This document shows, in pieces, positions 3,249-40,887 of a DNA stretch of 45,635 nt. Origin of the DNA: a virus. The notes below the pieces were generated by a model. It saw only the letters and a list, made by a program, of their open reading frames with translations, searched no databases and was not told where the DNA came from. Position numbers and translations under genes: made by a program. The DNA is taken from IMG/VR virus record IMGVR_UViG_3300025736_000050, positions 1 through 45,635 of that record. One strand, given 5' to 3'. Each line of letters starts with the position of its first letter. Positions within the stretch are counted from its first letter, which is position 1.

Positions 3249-4160
3249 CTAGGTAAACATCTCTTCGGAGTTGCCACCGGTTACTTTCAAGTGTGCTTCG
3301 TATGCTTCTTTTGTCTTCTTGTGGCAAATGGCCAGTGAAGTCCCGGACATCCGAGTCGTAGTATCAAACGATACGACATTACCATCCTTACCCTTAAATG
3401 ATGTCAACTTAATGAGTTGTGTTTTCATAGCTGCCTTATCACCATTGTTCATTTCAGTGAGACAAGCAGTAATCTCTTTGCGTTTATCAGCATCACCAGA
3501 CTTATCAGCAGGGGGCTTATTCTGTGTACCACCGCCACTACCACCACCGTAAGTTACGCGGTGAATCAGGTTGGCGTCGCCACCGTGATCTGCGATAATC
3601 TTAGCCAGCTTATCAGTCTTAATACCTCGCAATCCAAGCATCTGCTTGATACCATTACCAATACAGATATGCCTCGCAGCGGCCCGGATATCGTTCTCGT
3701 TAATATCCTCTAACGCCTTCCAGCCGCCCGCTTTAGTGAAGCCAAGGAACTTATCCCTTGTCGAATAAACGCCCTCACAGGGCAAGCTACGGCCCCACAA
3801 AAAGGCAGTAGCAGAGCAGATATATGTGTACCACCGTCCTTCACCGTCAGAACCGGAGTTCTTCTTCATAGTCCAGTTATCAAAGGTGAATGGCAGGTGC
3901 TTCAAGAACCTCTCCGCACCAGCACTTGATAGACAAGCTGTACCGTCATGGTCTATCCAATCTCCTTCATGGCAAATGTTTATGAACGTAGCCATTATTG
4001 CGTTCTCTGCTCTCTTAGCGTTCCTAGCCGCCCCTTCCAGTTGCGTAACAAACGAGTCATCAAAGAGTTGTAGATTATTTACACCCGCCTCCGAACTTCC
4101 ATTCTCAATAGGTACAATCGTACCATCTTCTACATTAGCATCAATAAATTCTTCCGACAT
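3249..4160 (-). CDS. unrecognised protein, possibly a recombination or annealing factor
   Basis: From the ATG at 4158-4160 the protein has 303 residues. A good ribosome site (GGAAAGGA) precedes that ATG; an upstream TTG at 4202 is less likely. The N-terminus is acidic and the central part folded-looking, including HICIGNGIKQMLGLRGI. A Gly-rich linker (YGGGSGGGTQN) and a charged C-terminal part follow. The middle motif, ending in an LGLR sequence, resembles sequences seen in phage proteins encoded next to Cas4-like nucleases, and the Gly-rich linker is reminiscent of single-strand-binding or annealing proteins. The position immediately before the nuclease and helicase supports a DNA-metabolism role. 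No catalytic signature is visible, so function is inferred from context only. Confidence 0.6.
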   Translation of the reverse strand: MSEEFIDANVEDGTIVPIENGSSEAGVNNLQLFDDSFVTQLEGAARNAKRAENAIMATFINICHEGDWIDHDGTACLSSAGAERFLKHLPFTFDNWTMKKNSGSDGEGRWYTYICSATAFLWGRSLPCEGVYSTRDKFLGFTKAGGWKALEDINENDIRAAARHICIGNGIKQMLGLRGIKTDKLAKIIADHGGDANLIHRVTYGGGSGGGTQNKPPADKSGDADKRKEITACLTEMNNGDKAAMKTQLIKLTSFKGKDGNVVSFDTTTRMSGTSLAICHKKTKEAYEAHLKVTGGNSEEMFT

Positions 4161-15370: not shown

Positions 15371-16039
15371 CTATATTGCGGGAACCGATAATCCCGATGT
15401 CCTGTTTCTTAAATTCTGCTTGGAAGCATACTGCGGTGTCCAGTCCTGGAAGTTACCATCTGATACAGCTATCCGCTTACATTGCTTTCCAAATATATTG
15501 TTAAAGAAGTTTCTCGTCTGGAAATCTCTCATCGCAGTTGCACCCCAGACAGTAGCCCTTGCTATTACTGCCAAATCCAACAGGCTACCCAGTGGATTAT
15601 TATCATCTGCGTTTGTATCGAACGGTATCGGCCATTGAGTCAAAAACAACTCGATAGGGATACCAGTTGTAGCGGGTGTTGGGTACAGCTTGATATACTC
15701 ACCTTCGTAAGTGTAATACTTAACCGGACCACCACCGCTGTCAGTTGGAGAAGAGAAAGCGTCCCGATATTCTTCAGGTGTTATATATTTCAGCGGTCTT
15801 GAATTTGAGCCGCTCATATAGATAGCGTCAAGTACTGTCTTTGTTCTGTTGGGAACGGGGTAGTAAAGCTTATTAGCAACCGTCTTGACCGATGTGCTAT
15901 CCAGCACTTTCATCTTACGCCAGTTACGCAAGGCCGCTGTATCTTGTAACGCAAAGTTCAGCCAGTCAGTCTCAAGGGCAGATATACTTCTATTGCCTAG
16001 ATTCTGCTGAAGATGCGTTTTCATTTCCGATTGTTTCAT
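15371..16039 (-). CDS. phage head-tail adaptor-like protein
   Basis: The 222-residue protein has the look of podovirus adaptor proteins that sit below the portal. A helical N-terminus (MKTHLQQNLGNRSISALETDWLNFALQD) contains a tryptophan-rich turn. A central strand-rich part with an ITPEEYRD segment and an LYPTP motif follows, then helices ending in Arg/Asn-rich sequence. Its start overlaps the stop of the NeuD-like gene (ATGA-type overlap). The order portal, capsid, adaptor, tail is as expected. The evidence is family resemblance plus position, without a catalytic motif. Confidence 0.65.
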   Translation of the reverse strand: MKQSEMKTHLQQNLGNRSISALETDWLNFALQDTAALRNWRKMKVLDSTSVKTVANKLYYPVPNRTKTVLDAIYMSGSNSRPLKYITPEEYRDAFSSPTDSGGGPVKYYTYEGEYIKLYPTPATTGIPIELFLTQWPIPFDTNADDNNPLGSLLDLAVIARATVWGATAMRDFQTRNFFNNIFGKQCKRIAVSDGNFQDWTPQYASKQNLRNRTSGLSVPAI

Positions 16040-16680
16040 GCTCTCACCATTTCCGCTGATTTAATGACTCTGGCCGGTACTCCAACCACAGTTGTATTTG
16101 CTTCTACGTCTTCCAGTACCACCGAACCAGCACCTATAATAGCACCGTCACCGATAGTTATATCTTGGACAACCGTAGCACCTATTCCGATAAATGCTCC
16201 TTCTCCCACATTCACCCTTCCAGCCAACTTAGCACCCGGACATATATGTGATGCTCTTCCTATCTTACACTCATGGTCAATAATAGAACCCGTATTAAGA
16301 ATAACAGAGTCGCCAATATCACAATGGGTACACACATGCGACCCTGCCGCTACCGTGACATTACTGCCTATCTTCGCATTACCAGCTATCGTAGCATAAG
16401 GATGTATGGCATTAACCAGAGAGATATGGTGGCACTTCAAATGCTGGGCAATTTTATTCCTGATTTCGTTGTCACCGATAGCAACAATGACACTATTAAA
16501 CTGATACCGCATAAAGCCAACATTGTCAGGCTGTCCAATAATAGGAATGCCGTCAACATTACGACCTTGCATTTGAATGTTGTTGTCCAAAAAACCAACG
16601 ACATCAAACTGGTGATTATTGCGTAGAATATCCAGTACGACACGACCATGCCCCCCTGCACCAATGATAGCAACCTTCAT
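16036..16680 (-). CDS. neuD-like: NeuD/PglD-type sugar O/N-acyltransferase (hexapeptide repeat)
   Basis: The 214-residue protein has the full two-domain layout of the NeuD/PglD family. A Rossmann-like N-terminus has the sugar-nucleotide-binding signature IIGAGGHGRVV (5-15). A left-handed beta-helix of hexapeptide repeats follows, with the catalytic-type histidine in IIDHECKIG (H136). The C-terminus is the usual VVGVPARVIK. Enzymes of this family use acetyl-CoA to acetylate UDP-amino sugars or sialic-type acids. It lies inside the virion operon, overlapping the adaptor gene, unlike its usual location in glycan loci. It probably works with the NeuB-, NeuA- and Maf-like proteins encoded elsewhere in this genome. 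The exact acceptor cannot be read from sequence. Confidence 0.92.
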   Translation of the reverse strand: MKVAIIGAGGHGRVVLDILRNNHQFDVVGFLDNNIQMQGRNVDGIPIIGQPDNVGFMRYQFNSVIVAIGDNEIRNKIAQHLKCHHISLVNAIHPYATIAGNAKIGSNVTVAAGSHVCTHCDIGDSVILNTGSIIDHECKIGRASHICPGAKLAGRVNVGEGAFIGIGATVVQDITIGDGAIIGAGSVVLEDVEANTTVVGVPARVIKSAEMVRA

Positions 16681-16695
16681 AGTACCTCCATAGGT

Positions 16696-16727
16696 GGGGC
16701 AGGCCGCGAAAGGTAACAGCCTGCCCC
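16696..16727 (-). other. intercistronic stem-loop before the NeuD-like gene
   Basis: A perfect 9-bp inverted repeat (GGGGCAGGC and GCCTGCCCC) with a 14-nt loop lies between the 103-residue gene and the NeuD-like gene. On the minus-strand transcript no U-run follows it, so it is not a typical terminator. It may set mRNA processing or stability and so lower enzyme relative to virion-protein expression (inference). Confidence 0.55.
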
Positions 16728-17089: not shown

Positions 17090-17863
17090 TTATTCCATGC
17101 ACCAATCAACAGCAAAGTAATTATCAGCACCAACCGCACCATCAATAGCATGGCCCCACGGGAGCGCTAGTACTGTTGTTGAGTTAGTGGTTGTGGATAG
17201 TAACCCTGCACTAACTGGAACTACTGGCGTACCAGCAGCCACGGTTGCCCTACTGTACCCCATGCCCGGCCCTTTAGTCTGCACCAGACAATAGCCCGAT
17301 GTTGCCACACTAATAACAGCAGCACCACCAGGAAGGATTCGCCCTTTGCCTGATACTGTGCTTGCTATCTCTAAGCCGTAATATGGATTAGTACGCAAAA
17401 CTGCGTAAGATGTCGTATCTAATGCAATAACTAAGCCTTGCTTGAGCCGCAAACGAGAGATGCCAGTGCCTCCGATCTCGTAAGAGTTTACCGGGTACGC
17501 AAAGCCATGACCTGTACCGGACACAACTTCAAATGTACCATCTTCGTAGCGAGTCATAGACGATAGCCCAGCGGATACGCCATACAGCTTGATATTAACA
17601 TCTCCGATACTACCACCCCAACCTGCGGCTGCACTGTTTAAGTGACCGCCGGGGCCAGAGACTATTTTAGTACTTGCTGTAGAGACATAACTGTGTTTCT
17701 TAAATACGTGACCGGGTACGGCAGAAGCCATTGCGCAATAAGCCCAACGGAATGTCCGCATACCATCTTCAAACTTTGTGCCTAAAGGAATATCACCTTT
17801 AGTAGATTGGACACCAGCGGTCAATAGTGCCTGCACGCCTCTTCCATAACTGTGAACTTGCAT
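17090..17863 (-). CDS. tandem paralogous virion-type protein, copy 2
   Basis: This 257-residue protein is collinear with the 257-residue product of 17895-18668 and starts with nearly the same sequence (MQVHSYGRGVQALLTAGVQS). Both end PWGHA...YFAVDWCME. It is rich in Gly, Ser and Thr and mainly beta-forming, with a central GGTGISRLRLKQGLVIALDT segment. No enzyme motif is visible. The position right after the major capsid gene suggests an abundant capsid surface, head-fibre or vertex protein. The many surface-type Ser/Thr residues and the nearby NeuD-like gene make it a candidate acceptor for the phage-encoded glycosylation enzymes (inference). The Shine-Dalgarno lies in a small hairpin shared with the 17057 gene. 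Confidence 0.7.
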   Translation of the reverse strand: MQVHSYGRGVQALLTAGVQSTKGDIPLGTKFEDGMRTFRWAYCAMASAVPGHVFKKHSYVSTASTKIVSGPGGHLNSAAAGWGGSIGDVNIKLYGVSAGLSSMTRYEDGTFEVVSGTGHGFAYPVNSYEIGGTGISRLRLKQGLVIALDTTSYAVLRTNPYYGLEIASTVSGKGRILPGGAAVISVATSGYCLVQTKGPGMGYSRATVAAGTPVVPVSAGLLSTTTNSTTVLALPWGHAIDGAVGADNYFAVDWCME

Positions 17864-17868
17864 AGTAA

Positions 17869-17884
17869 ACCTCCCTTCAGAGGT
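17869..17884 (-). promoter_or_regulatory. Shine-Dalgarno-sequestering hairpin, copy A
   Basis: The 16-nt inverted-repeat element is the same as at 17063-17078 (ACCUC, 6-nt loop, GAGGU) and holds the GGGAGG ribosome site of the gene starting at 17863. Confidence 0.5.
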
Positions 17885-17894
17885 ATGATGTTAA

Positions 17895-18668
17895 TTATTC
17901 CATACACCAGTCAACAGCGAACCAATCTCCACCACCGGCTGTACCTCGCACCGCATGTCCCCAAGGGAACGCTAGTGCTGTTTTTGAATTAGTGGTTGTT
18001 GACATCAATCCACTTCCAACTGGCATGACCGGCGCACCGGCACTTAATTTAGCATTAGACTCACCTATACCCGGACCCTTGGTCTGGACAAGGCAATAGC
18101 CCGATGCGGTAACACTTACTGTTGCTGCACCACCCGGGAGGATACGGCCCTTGCCGGATACTGTGCTTGCAAAGTCTAAACCATAATAGGGGTTAGGTCT
18201 TAGAACTGCGTAAGATGTCGTATCTAATGCAATTATTAGCCCCTGTTTGATTTTAACATTAGAAACACCAGTGCCGCCAACTTCATACGAATTGACTGGA
18301 TATGAAAAACCTGCACCCGTACCGGAAACGATCTCAAGTGTTCCGTCTTCGTAACGAGTGTTTGATGTTAATCCACCAGAAACGCCGTATAGTCTAACGT
18401 TGGTATCTCCAATTCTACCGCCCCAGCCATCAATAGCACTATTGAAATGACCACCGGGGCCAGACAAGACCTTAGTGCTTGCAGTTGAAACGTAGCTGTG
18501 TTTTTTGAACACATTGCCGGGGAGTGCTGACGCCATCGCAATATAAGCCCAACGGAACGTTCGCATCCCGTCCTCAAACTTCTGACCTAAAGGAGTGTCT
18601 CCTTTAGAGGATTGGACGCCCGCGGTCAATAACGCCTGCAATCCCTTTCCGTAACTATGTACTTGCAT
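17895..18668 (-). CDS. tandem paralogous virion-type protein, copy 1
   Basis: The 257-residue protein is the paralogue of the one at 17090-17863. The two proteins have the same length and align throughout without visible gaps, with differences spread along the sequence. That indicates an old tandem duplication, not an assembly artefact. This copy directly follows the major capsid gene. It shares Thr-Thr-Asn-Ser-rich segments (LMSTTTNSKT) and a Trp-Cys-Met-Glu end with the other copy. A capsid decoration, head-fibre or portal-vertex function is inferred from position and composition. Confidence 0.7.
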   Translation of the reverse strand: MQVHSYGKGLQALLTAGVQSSKGDTPLGQKFEDGMRTFRWAYIAMASALPGNVFKKHSYVSTASTKVLSGPGGHFNSAIDGWGGRIGDTNVRLYGVSGGLTSNTRYEDGTLEIVSGTGAGFSYPVNSYEVGGTGVSNVKIKQGLIIALDTTSYAVLRPNPYYGLDFASTVSGKGRILPGGAATVSVTASGYCLVQTKGPGIGESNAKLSAGAPVMPVGSGLMSTTTNSKTALAFPWGHAVRGTAGGGDWFAVDWCME

Positions 18669-18725: not shown

Positions 18726-19730
18726 TTAGTCGCCATTAGCACTAATATTGAAGATACAACCATGCGACCGGGCCGATGTACGAGCCATCGCACAAACCGT
18801 CACAAGTTGACGGAACTTAGTGAGAGGCAAATTTACAGCCTCTTTGCTATCCGTCCACTTCATGTAATAACCAGGGTCAACACACCACAGAAGGCCACTA
18901 TTAGTAACCATACGCAGTTCGCCACTCGGAGCATACTTATCGAAGATGATAGGTAAGCCTTTGAACTTTACCGTTTCAAATGTAGCGTCACCGATTTTGG
19001 TCTTAGAATCCGTAGTCATAAATGACATAGCATTCTTCTCGTAAATCTGCTTCACATCTTTGTGGGTGAAGATAACGTCCGGCGTACCAGTTTCCAACTC
19101 GATGATATCGTGCATATCAATCATCTCAGATTCCAGGTTGGTCGTTGCCGGTGAACCACTCATGTTAGTACCCTGCGTTCTCCACCAAGCTTTAGTAGAT
19201 GGTGACAAACCGCCAATAGAAATTGACTGACTGGCAGGTACGGTTGCCGGGATAAGACGAGTCAACCCTTCAGGTTGCTTGCCTGCTCCACCAGAACCAT
19301 TGAAAACCGCCTGAGCCAGAAGATTCTTGACAGATTTAATTGTCACTTCTTCTTTGTGTTCGATGATGGAATACTTCTTGTTGGAGCCACGGTTGACTCT
19401 CTGTTGATATCTCGGCCACCTTGTACCGTAAGCCAATGTCTTAGCCCAGTAGGTAGCACCATCATCAGGATCGAAGTCGTCCATCGAGACTCCCTCTTCC
19501 TCATTTATCCACCCACCATTAGGATTCTCTTCGACCAGCAGCGGAACAATAAACTGTTCGCCACCCTCGCCTAACATATTGGTGTTCTTACGAGACAGCA
19601 TCCACGACAGTGTTGGATGTTCATGAAATATCTGGTCTTCAATGGTCTTCCACCGCTGGTCCCATGAACTCATAAAAAGCATATCAAGATATGCGGTATT
19701 ACCCTTTTTGTAATAGGTTGCTTTAGCCAT
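18726..19730 (-). CDS. major capsid protein (HK97-fold type)
   Basis: The 334-residue protein has the size and position of a major capsid protein. It follows a scaffold-like gene and precedes decoration-type genes. The N-terminal arm (TAYLDMLFMSSW) is followed by a helical and acidic segment (GGWINEEEGVSMDDFDPDDG), a typical E-loop and spine region, and a C-terminal beta-rich segment ending LVTVCAMARTSARSHGCIF. It also has the TPDVIFTHKDVKQIYEKN region common in phage capsid proteins. The leader has an unusual potential pseudoknot (19743-19795) that ends in the Shine-Dalgarno GGAGG (19740-19744). The call rests on length, order and general sequence character. Confidence 0.85.
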   Translation of the reverse strand: MAKATYYKKGNTAYLDMLFMSSWDQRWKTIEDQIFHEHPTLSWMLSRKNTNMLGEGGEQFIVPLLVEENPNGGWINEEEGVSMDDFDPDDGATYWAKTLAYGTRWPRYQQRVNRGSNKKYSIIEHKEEVTIKSVKNLLAQAVFNGSGGAGKQPEGLTRLIPATVPASQSISIGGLSPSTKAWWRTQGTNMSGSPATTNLESEMIDMHDIIELETGTPDVIFTHKDVKQIYEKNAMSFMTTDSKTKIGDATFETVKFKGLPIIFDKYAPSGELRMVTNSGLLWCVDPGYYMKWTDSKEAVNLPLTKFRQLVTVCAMARTSARSHGCIFNISANGD

Positions 19731-19739
19731 AATAGCTTT

Positions 19740-19795
19740 CCTCCGGCACTTTTGCCTTAGACAAAGAGCAAGTGTAAGTGCCGGTACACTTGCTC
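19740..19795 (-). promoter_or_regulatory. potential H-type RNA pseudoknot in the major capsid gene leader
   Basis: In the minus-strand mRNA, GAGCAAGUGUA (19785-19795) pairs perfectly with UACACUUGCUC (19766-19776), giving an 11-bp stem. The 8-nt loop CCGGCACU (19777-19784) is the exact complement of AGUGCCGG (19743-19750), 15 nt after the stem. The last bases of that strand overlap GGAGG, the capsid gene ribosome site (19740-19744). A pseudoknot or two mutually exclusive hairpins are possible. Either could control access to the capsid start codon. Confidence 0.7.
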
Positions 19796-19846
19796 AAAGA
19801 AGCCAGTCGGAAAACTGACATATCTTCTTGTTGTTTCGTAACTCTC

Positions 19847-20674
19847 TTACCTACCAGCCCGCGCCTCTGCCGCATCAACAGCTTCCCTTATCGAAGGGAC
19901 TCTGGTTGACTTTGGCTTTTGCACCTGAGTAGGTCTTGTAGAGCCGCGTCTTGCTTTGACCTTGCGTTTCCGCTGGGCCTTCTGAGACTGCTTGCTCTGC
20001 TTTTGGAGGGACGATACCTGCTTCTTAGCAGCTAATCCGTCCGCTGTTTGCATAGCCATCTGGAAGCTTATTGTCGGATTCTTTTGCATCATTACTAATG
20101 CGTCAGAAATCATCTGCTTCTGTGGGTGGCCTTGCAATGCTGTGTCCAGTAGGTTGTCGTAGATATTCAATCTTTTCGAGAGATTGTTCACCAGCTCATT
20201 CATCACAGCGTTATTTTGCTCTTGTGATTGTTCAACAGCATATTGAATAGTCTGTTGAGGGCTGTAGTCATCTACGTCTTCAGGCATTGTTATGTGCGGT
20301 TTAACGACACGCTGAGGGGCAGGTTGCTGGACTGGGGCTTGTTGCTGACCGCCTTGTTGAACAAAGCTGGCCATAGCTGTAACAACGCCCTGTAACTGCT
20401 CCATTTGCTGCGACATTTTGTCGAAGCGTTTGTCTTGATCTGATACTGGTTTTGCTGGCTCACCGGCTTCTTCGTCGGCTGAGTCGTCATCAGAATCCTC
20501 ATTTTCCGCATCGTAGGATTCTTCAGTATCGTCAAAGACTTCTTCCTGGTCTTCGTCATTTGCATCCGTATCAGTTTCGGGGACAATTACGTCGCCTACT
20601 TCCTCATCGAGGTCTGTCGTTGCTTCTGACTGAGACTCTGGTATTTCTTCGTTATTGTATTCTTGTTCTGACAT
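19847..20674 (-). CDS. scaffolding-type protein, acidic and coiled coil
   Basis: The 275-residue protein has a strongly acidic N-terminal third (many Asp/Glu blocks such as DDTEESYDAENEDSDDD), a central Gln-rich helical region (QMEQLQGVVTAMASFVQQ), and a Lys/Arg-rich C-terminus (QKAQRKRKVKARRGSTR). This charge polarity and helicity, directly before the major capsid gene, is typical of phage scaffolding proteins, whose basic C-termini contact the capsid shell. It overlaps the 153-residue gene upstream by 23 bases. No protease motif was seen. Confidence 0.7.
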   Translation of the reverse strand: MSEQEYNNEEIPESQSEATTDLDEEVGDVIVPETDTDANDEDQEEVFDDTEESYDAENEDSDDDSADEEAGEPAKPVSDQDKRFDKMSQQMEQLQGVVTAMASFVQQGGQQQAPVQQPAPQRVVKPHITMPEDVDDYSPQQTIQYAVEQSQEQNNAVMNELVNNLSKRLNIYDNLLDTALQGHPQKQMISDALVMMQKNPTISFQMAMQTADGLAAKKQVSSLQKQSKQSQKAQRKRKVKARRGSTRPTQVQKPKSTRVPSIREAVDAAEARAGR

Positions 20675-39102: not shown

Positions 39103-40887
39103 TTACATAGTTTTATTCTTTAATCCGTCACGCATTTCACTGATTATCTCATACATCTTCTCCGCTGAGTTCTGGATGGTAGATATATATTTAATGTCAC
39201 GACCAAATCTATGTTCTTTAATCTTATGCTTGTCCCACTTGTCTTCGTTTCGTTTACATATCGTATCTTCCCATCTCTTAATAAACTCCGCTATCCCGCT
39301 GAAGCTCTCTATTCGCGGGGCAAGGTGCATCAATCCATCTAGCACCTTCTTCTCCTTGATAATAATCGCTCTCGATTTATTCCACAATGTCTCGTCCTCA
39401 AACTTCCCTTCCAAAATCATATAAGCATTCACAATCTTCTTGTGAGATATGATAAATCTATCCAACTCACCCAGATATTTATCAACACTCTTAAAAACTT
39501 CGTCCATCTCTATCCCCTGCTTCACTAAACCGGGGAAGGATATTTCGCCACTATTCTTATATGTCTTAATCGCATCTTCCAGTGTCATCTCTTCGCAATG
39601 TGCTTTCTTTACGCTCTTGGGATGGGAACAATCAACGACAGTACCATCAAAGTTACGCCACATCATTTCAAACTGCTTCAGATAACTCACCATCTGCTCA
39701 TCTGAATAAACCGGGTCACCTGATTTATTCTTACACACTCTTAACATCCGATGTTGTGGTGACACCATTAACCTCGATGACTCCTTCCATTTGTGATGCT
39801 CATATACGGCCTCAGCGTAGTACTTTTCCTCCGGGAACGATAGATCATTACCAATCATAATAATGTTCTCAGCACCCAGCCATGCGGCAACCTGGAAACT
39901 CAGGTGTGCTACTGTGGAACAGCCACTGATATAGTCCTCTCGCTTCAATCCACACAACTCATTGAGCCATCCATCTGAGAAGAAACACAACTTACCACCC
40001 ATCTTCTGGATAGCTTCAATAACAGCCGGATTGACCTTTGGGTCCATTAGAAATACGACACCCTTGCATTGTTCAAGTGTAACATCATCCAGAAACCGGC
40101 CTGATATCTCATGGTAATCTAGTGCCGTAACATACGCTGGCTTGATACCATTGGCCAATAGCGGCTTGAGCATAGTTAAGCATGTCACGAATGGCGGCAT
40201 CTCGCTGAGTTGATTCAGTCCGGGCAGAACATCGTCAACACTTGGGCCTGCCGCCACCGTGACAAGCGTGGCACTCTTTTCTTTTACGCAATCTTTTAAG
40301 TTCTCAATCGTTGGGTTATGCAGGTAGAAAAATGTATTGCCCAGGATATTATCAGCCGTTACTTTGCTGTTCGTCATTTGGGTGAGCATTAGCGTCTTCT
40401 GTGCATCGGCATAATCCATAACTGTTCGTGCGGCATTGGACCAAAACACATTATCATAATTCCATATCGGCTTGACAACTTTAACGCCACGACTCAATCT
40501 ATCAACAGACAATTGCAAGCGAATAACAATCTCACTTGGGTCTTCCGTGTCAATCAGAATAATTCTATTCGTCAATATTGCCACTGATATATCTACGCGG
40601 CTAAGCGCATATCTCAAGATAGAGGGAGATTTCTCCAGAAGTATTATCACTTCGTCGTCCGAGGTCTTATCAATCAACTTCTCCAAGAATACACCGTCAC
40701 ATATTCCAGGTATGATATAAACCCAAGGGTCATCATTGACTACATCCATCACATCTGGATAGATATTACCGGATGGAAGTTTCTTACGAGTCTTTGCATT
40801 GAGCAATTTCTCTCGTATGTCTTCACCGATAACGTCCCAGTTAGATTGTAGAATCTTTGTTCGTCGCTCGCGCTTTGGTTTACTCAT
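39103..40887 (-). CDS. maf-like: Maf/DUF115-type nonulosonic acid glycosyltransferase-like protein
   Basis: The 594-residue protein has an N-terminal domain and a central Maf/DUF115-type domain with AAGPSVDD (212-219), TALDYHE (254-260), GCSTVAHL (322-329) and IIMIGNDLSFP (342-352). The C-terminal helical part is longer than usual. Characterised Maf-type proteins transfer pseudaminic or legionaminic acid from its CMP-sugar to Ser/Thr residues of flagellin. Here a NeuA-like synthetase lies downstream in the same unit. With NeuB- and NeuD-like proteins in the same genome, the phage can be read as encoding its own virion or host glycosylation system (inference). Confidence 0.88.
   Translation of the reverse strand: MSKPKRERRTKILQSNWDVIGEDIREKLLNAKTRKKLPSGNIYPDVMDVVNDDPWVYIIPGICDGVFLEKLIDKTSDDEVIILLEKSPSILRYALSRVDISVAILTNRIILIDTEDPSEIVIRLQLSVDRLSRGVKVVKPIWNYDNVFWSNAARTVMDYADAQKTLMLTQMTNSKVTADNILGNTFFYLHNPTIENLKDCVKEKSATLVTVAAGPSVDDVLPGLNQLSEMPPFVTCLTMLKPLLANGIKPAYVTALDYHEISGRFLDDVTLEQCKGVVFLMDPKVNPAVIEAIQKMGGKLCFFSDGWLNELCGLKREDYISGCSTVAHLSFQVAAWLGAENIIMIGNDLSFPEEKYYAEAVYEHHKWKESSRLMVSPQHRMLRVCKNKSGDPVYSDEQMVSYLKQFEMMWRNFDGTVVDCSHPKSVKKAHCEEMTLEDAIKTYKNSGEISFPGLVKQGIEMDEVFKSVDKYLGELDRFIISHKKIVNAYMILEGKFEDETLWNKSRAIIIKEKKVLDGLMHLAPRIESFSGIAEFIKRWEDTICKRNEDKWDKHKIKEHRFGRDIKYISTIQNSAEKMYEIISEMRDGLKNKTM

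Follow-up and report, generated by a model that had tools for sequence, protein, structure and literature searches.

The capsid locus and its leader

The window analysed here is the whole of the viral record IMGVR_UViG_3300025736_000050, 45,635 nucleotides in length. A gene for the major capsid protein lies on its minus strand, and the leader directly before it holds a compact set of complementary segments, read from 19795 to 19740, whose stem (S1) stands 35 nt before the capsid ATG at 19730. In the order of transcription, the features are:

19847..20674, minus strand: upstream gene, 275 aa, from the list of open reading frames; ends 116 nt before the capsid start
19796..19827, minus strand: upstream hairpin, abutting S1 with zero unpaired bases between; paired in the window and in the relative L001 despite sequence change
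19785..19795, minus strand: S1 5' arm, GAGCAAGTGTA; 11 perfect pairs with 19766-19776; invariant in relatives
19777..19784, minus strand: loop, CCGGCACT, 8 nt; 5' strand of the proposed pseudoknot helix S2 and exact complement of 19743-19750; invariant
19766..19776, minus strand: S1 3' arm, TACACTTGCTC; pairs with the 5' arm
19751..19765, minus strand: linker, TTTGTCTAAGGCAAA, 15 nt; loop 3 of the proposed pseudoknot; 14/15 positions the same in relatives, the sole change being C to T
19743..19750, minus strand: S2 3' strand, AGTGCCGG; exact complement of the loop, sharing 2 nt with the Shine-Dalgarno (SD)
19740..19744, minus strand: capsid SD, GGAGG, 9 nt 5' of the ATG (19730-19728)
18726..19730, minus strand: major capsid protein gene, 334 aa; phrog_9953 major head protein, E 1.7e-26

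A preliminary description of this DNA had claimed a perfect 11-bp stem, an 8-nt loop with an exact complement near the SD and a 15-nt linker, overlapping the ribosome site. This layout was confirmed from the coordinates, including the overlap, in which AGTGCCGG shares two bases with GGAGG. The complement had been placed wholly before the SD, and this is corrected here, as it takes in the first two G of that motif.

The upstream gene matched no PHROGs family; as judged from position only, it would occupy the place of a scaffolding protein. On the 3' side of the capsid gene, alignment to the close relative L001 is very poor over 17381-18191 (minus strand), pointing to a gene replacement or deletion within a region otherwise about 88% identical between the two. 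Elsewhere in the window, the minus-strand gene at 39103-40887 encodes a 594-aa protein with an MptE-like (6-hydroxymethylpterin diphosphokinase) domain (E 1.5e-25), which is unexpected in a phage.

Hairpins between two genes may also act on transcription, and a partial terminator or attenuator between the upstream and capsid genes, with S2 pairing opposing or favouring termination, has to be considered. S1 is followed by TTTGTCT and the upstream hairpin by TTCTTT, and the two hairpins account for two of the three matches of a simple, loose terminator scan (0.5 expected in shuffles). However, the T tracts are short and broken, as in TTTGTCT, only 5 of the 11 S1 pairs are G-C, and the overlap with the SD is left unexplained. 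Moreover, no sigma-70-like promoter was found in 19500-20100, so that a terminator here would shut off the capsid gene itself. This explanation is therefore considered improbable.

Uniqueness in the window and searches elsewhere

Both strands of the window were scanned for stems of at least 8 bp whose loop has a complement of at least 6 nt within 40 nt. The S1/S2 arrangement was the single match in the whole window at those settings, for which the chance expectation is about 0.03 per random strand of matching dinucleotide composition; with a stem of at least 10 bp and at least 8 complementary nt, there were 0 cases in 30 simulated strands. The earlier claim that the structure sits only at this gene, presumably the most highly expressed one, thus holds for a pseudoknot of such strength, but does not extend to weaker loop-SD matches, one of which occurs in the structured leader at 16681-16727 (minus strand). 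With a z of -4.4, this leader is the most structured in the window and contains a 9-bp G+C-rich hairpin. Pairing is possible between the hairpin loop, ACCTTT (16714-16709), and the SD GGAGGT (16689-16684) of the gene at 16036-16680, and the stem carries a compensatory G-C to A-U change in L001. The gene itself (minus strand) lies among the structural genes and encodes a PglD-like sugar O-acyltransferase with hexapeptide repeats, with a role perhaps in surface-sugar modification.

Searches for the capsid leader element outside the window returned it in close relatives only. At curated thresholds, the whole window had 0 Rfam matches, riboswitches and leaders included, and nothing credible appeared at a relaxed threshold (best hit 15.1 bits; gathering score 50). 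Among 2.9 million viral contigs, a search for S1 with its loop left free and one for the loop plus complement with the stem left free each recovered the arrangement in close relatives only; the remaining matches to the S2 pattern belonged to other folds lacking an S1-like stem. A blastn comparison of the leader with 50,697 phage records gave short chance matches only. A model of the element (R2) matched no leader among distant relatives. The model's sole, weak hit (L106, E 0.04) lies across the 3' end of a capsid gene, and we attribute it to chance.

Conservation in close relatives

The close relatives found were three near-identical viral contigs, with leaders identical among them, and these represent one distinct haplotype. 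Between the window and these relatives, the capsid gene has 88.5% DNA identity and 68% identity at fourfold sites. Within a 4.7-kb alignment, the segment 19805-19735 is the best 71-nt block, with 70/71 positions identical; the runner-up blocks (69/71) are in coding DNA, and the spacer immediately upstream of the block has about 60% identity. The single difference falls in the linker. Local gene conversion was considered as a source of this identity and rejected as unlikely, because the first 40 capsid codons, directly adjacent, diverge normally at fourfold sites (62% identity at 13 sites). The block is very probably a functional RNA element.

All 19 pairs of S1 and S2 are invariant between the window and its relatives and, as these are the sole close relatives found, covariation neither proves nor refutes the pseudoknot here. 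Searches with the portal and terminase proteins returned very close or very distant relatives only, with no intermediates suitable for covariation. In the upstream hairpin (19796..19827), one both-sided and two one-sided changes separate the window from L001 and every pair is kept, which, coming from two distinct sequences, is weak evidence of pairing by itself. Conservation in the linker equals that in the helices, more than a pure pseudoknot would call for.

The same conservation might reflect a purpose in mRNA stability or processing, in which stacked hairpins block a 5' exonuclease or RNase E, or provide a cleavage site for RNase III, the loop complement being no more than a stabilizing addition. 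The two hairpins do abut each other right before a structural gene, and conservation does not tell such purposes apart. Nevertheless, a protecting hairpin could stand anywhere, with no need for a fixed loop and linker, and the exact 8-nt loop complement on the SD would be left unexplained. Because that complement overlaps the SD, translational control is likelier than mere mRNA protection, which is regarded as an unlikely principal function.

Folding of the leader

The capsid leader folds much more stably than its shuffles (z -3.55) and ranks second of the 39 minus-strand gene starts. S1 is kept in the nested minimum fold, in which the SD is mostly but loosely paired within a weak 3' hairpin and there is no pseudoknot. 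The stacking energy of S2 ranges from -16 kcal/mol (7 bp) to -19 kcal/mol (8 bp). Assuming the usual pseudoknot penalty, which we estimate at about 9-10 kcal/mol, the modelled S1/S2 knot would be about as stable as the nested fold, or stabler. Loop 1 would have 0 nt to cross an 8-bp S2, which we take to be sterically tight for an H-type pseudoknot; presumably, the likely form has a 7-bp S2 with one pair frayed and GAGG exposed beside the knot. Formation of the S1/S2 pseudoknot is, on balance, considered probable.

The same segments could alternatively form two exclusive hairpins and no pseudoknot, with the SD partly free in an S1 form and hidden in an S2 hairpin. Taken alone, and extended through the S1 3' arm and the linker, the S2 hairpin reaches -19.2 kcal/mol, and the relatives' linker change keeps its extended pairs as G-U; since this hairpin uses the linker, it would account for the conservation there. 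In the full leader, however, forcing the S2 hairpin at the expense of S1 costs 3.7 kcal/mol compared with the S1 fold, in the window and relative alike. S1 would also form first, and the pairing probability of S2 in the nested ensemble is 0.001-0.04. A switch of this kind is quite unlikely as the main behaviour of the leader. A separate linker hairpin (6 bp in the window) was discarded, since the relative's C to T change shifts its energy from -2.0 to +2.9 kcal/mol.

Capsid leaders of distant relatives and the R1 RNA

The capsid family extends to phage Mx9 and other phages at 20-25% identity; the window and Mx9 capsid proteins have 20% identity along their alignment (tblastn E 9e-9). The capsid leaders of these distant relatives have no sequence in common with that of the window, and many are strongly folded. 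Their median z is -2.2, whereas other leaders on those contigs have a median of -0.36 (25 versus 130; Mann-Whitney p 6e-4, for sequences that are not fully independent). Strong folds of their own are present in the capsid leaders of L021, L023, L026, L030 and L033; in L023, L026 and L033, the capsid SD is paired within a long helix of unrelated sequence.

In one branch of these relatives, a structured RNA of about 75 nt plus an outer helix, here termed R1, lies directly before the capsid genes. Its sites are:

L005 (Mx9), 3892-3965: R1
L099 (Mx8), 305-379: R1
L046-L071, more than 20 viral contigs: R1

R1 has a conserved core, GGGGCGUGAGCGA...CCACGCGC, with nested helices. The core pattern matched 26 viral stretches, of which 22 are 67-97 nt before a capsid start; a further match, in L058, precedes a similar-looking start at the end of its contig. 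A nearly identical core, sought across 257 billion bases of cellular genomes, had 20 matches, none of them adjoining a capsid gene. The R1 hairpin loop pairs with the strand after CCACGCGCAGAA. The longest loop-strand complements sum to 124, compared with 92.7 +/- 4.6 when re-dealt among phages (0/2000), and those of the outer arms to 172, compared with 135 +/- 4.9 (0/300); as judged from these sequence comparisons, the R1 pseudoknot and outer helix covary. The 3' arm of the outer helix is at or near the SD in clear cases.

Two matches outside the training set (L042 and L045; E 3e-8 and 7e-8) are both capsid leaders. Among 8 further phage records, the only convincing match was in Mx8 (L099), which is not an independent test because the identical sequence is in the training set as L059. 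Most of the negative records have just 10-30 nt or so before the capsid gene; BUCT555 has a long gap there and still no R1 match. Membership of the window element in R1 was rejected: the sequence is unrelated, the core is absent and the R1 model, run on the window at E up to 10, matched nothing. The absence of a match makes R1 a positional analogue, not proof of homology.

These distant leaders bear also on a DNA-level explanation, namely an origin, a protein-binding palindrome or a recombination site. The S1 arms do form a perfect interrupted palindrome in the DNA, but the loop complement falls on the capsid SD in the RNA sense and RNA folds recur at the same position in relatives of unrelated sequence. 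A DNA site is accordingly thought highly improbable.

Proposed mechanism and implications

The preliminary description had read the leader as a pseudoknot-like control element. The broader part of that reading stands, in that the 70/71 block, the z of -3.55, the compensatory change in the neighbouring hairpin and the occurrence of R1 at the same position all point to an RNA element that functions at the capsid ribosome site; the pseudoknot itself is predicted. Control of translation through alternative folds of the capsid leader is judged to be just on the probable side of even.

In the mechanism that we infer, including the direction of control, the element would be a cis-acting translational operator in the major capsid mRNA leader. 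S1 would fold first during transcription, after which the emerging AGTGCCGG may be captured by the S1 loop to give an H-type pseudoknot against the SD, with one or two SD bases held. The leader would thus have at least two states, one with S1 and the weak 3' hairpin and the other with the S1/S2 pseudoknot, and the 30S subunit would have to melt, or wait out, the latter. The rate of capsid translation could thereby be set independently of the upstream gene. The RNA is probably the site at which a protein tips the balance; speculative candidates for this ligand are excess capsid protein, another phage protein or a ribosomal protein.

A wider and more doubtful proposal is that capsid genes of a podovirus lineage have repeatedly acquired different pseudoknotted leaders that gate the ribosome site. 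Such leaders would respond to free capsid, or to some other assembly protein, as autoregulatory operators, and the window element would be one among several solutions reached independently. Late promoters and SD strength are usually credited with controlling phage structural genes. If a conserved knot does act on the capsid SD here, with a separate covarying family at that position in Mx8 and Mx9, capsid output would also be set at translation; if such knots have arisen repeatedly and independently, late genes would be under a general layer of control that has yet to be described. The open-access literature yielded no description of pseudoknots in phage capsid leaders, which is weak evidence of novelty. 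The R1 RNA, which had no match in Rfam, is possibly the weightier finding of the two, and its presence in cultured Myxococcus phages (Mx8, Mx9) makes the question of translational control testable.

Comparison with known systems

R1 is the nearest counterpart in position, being located before the capsid gene of the same distant protein family. In both RNAs a hairpin loop pairs with a downstream strand, and the outer helix of R1 is directed toward the SD. In contrast, the sequence, the helices and the GGGGCGUGAGCGA...CCACGCGC core of R1 are not common to the window element.

The SAM-II riboswitch is likewise a compact pseudoknot controlling access to the SD. Translational riboswitches of the preQ1 type are described as compact pseudoknots acting on SD access (PMC10622847, PMC11625349). 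The window element differs from both in having no Rfam match and fully paired helices that would leave little room for a metabolite pocket, and its capsid gene would seem to have no metabolite link.

The rpsO/S15 leaders of E. coli and mycobacteria form either stem-loops or a pseudoknot at the ribosome site, and the pseudoknot is the repressed state (PMC8470358). The window leader, too, may exchange stem-loops for a pseudoknot at the ribosome site. It differs in belonging to a phage capsid gene, in its 11-bp S1 and fully complementary loop, and in having no Rfam leader family. Within phages, the gene 32 leader of T4 and T2 contains a pseudoknot serving translational autoregulation; in T4 the element stands 67 nt upstream, where it serves only to nucleate binding, which then extends across the ribosome site (PMC3014915). 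The window leader has an exact potential for pseudoknot pairing, with no covariation within its helices. Unlike the T4 element, its S2 itself overlaps the SD, and the gene encodes a capsid protein (phrog_9953) rather than a single-stranded DNA-binding protein. By analogy, the window element would fit the mode of action of the rpsO/S15 and T4 gene 32 operators, while being a member of neither.
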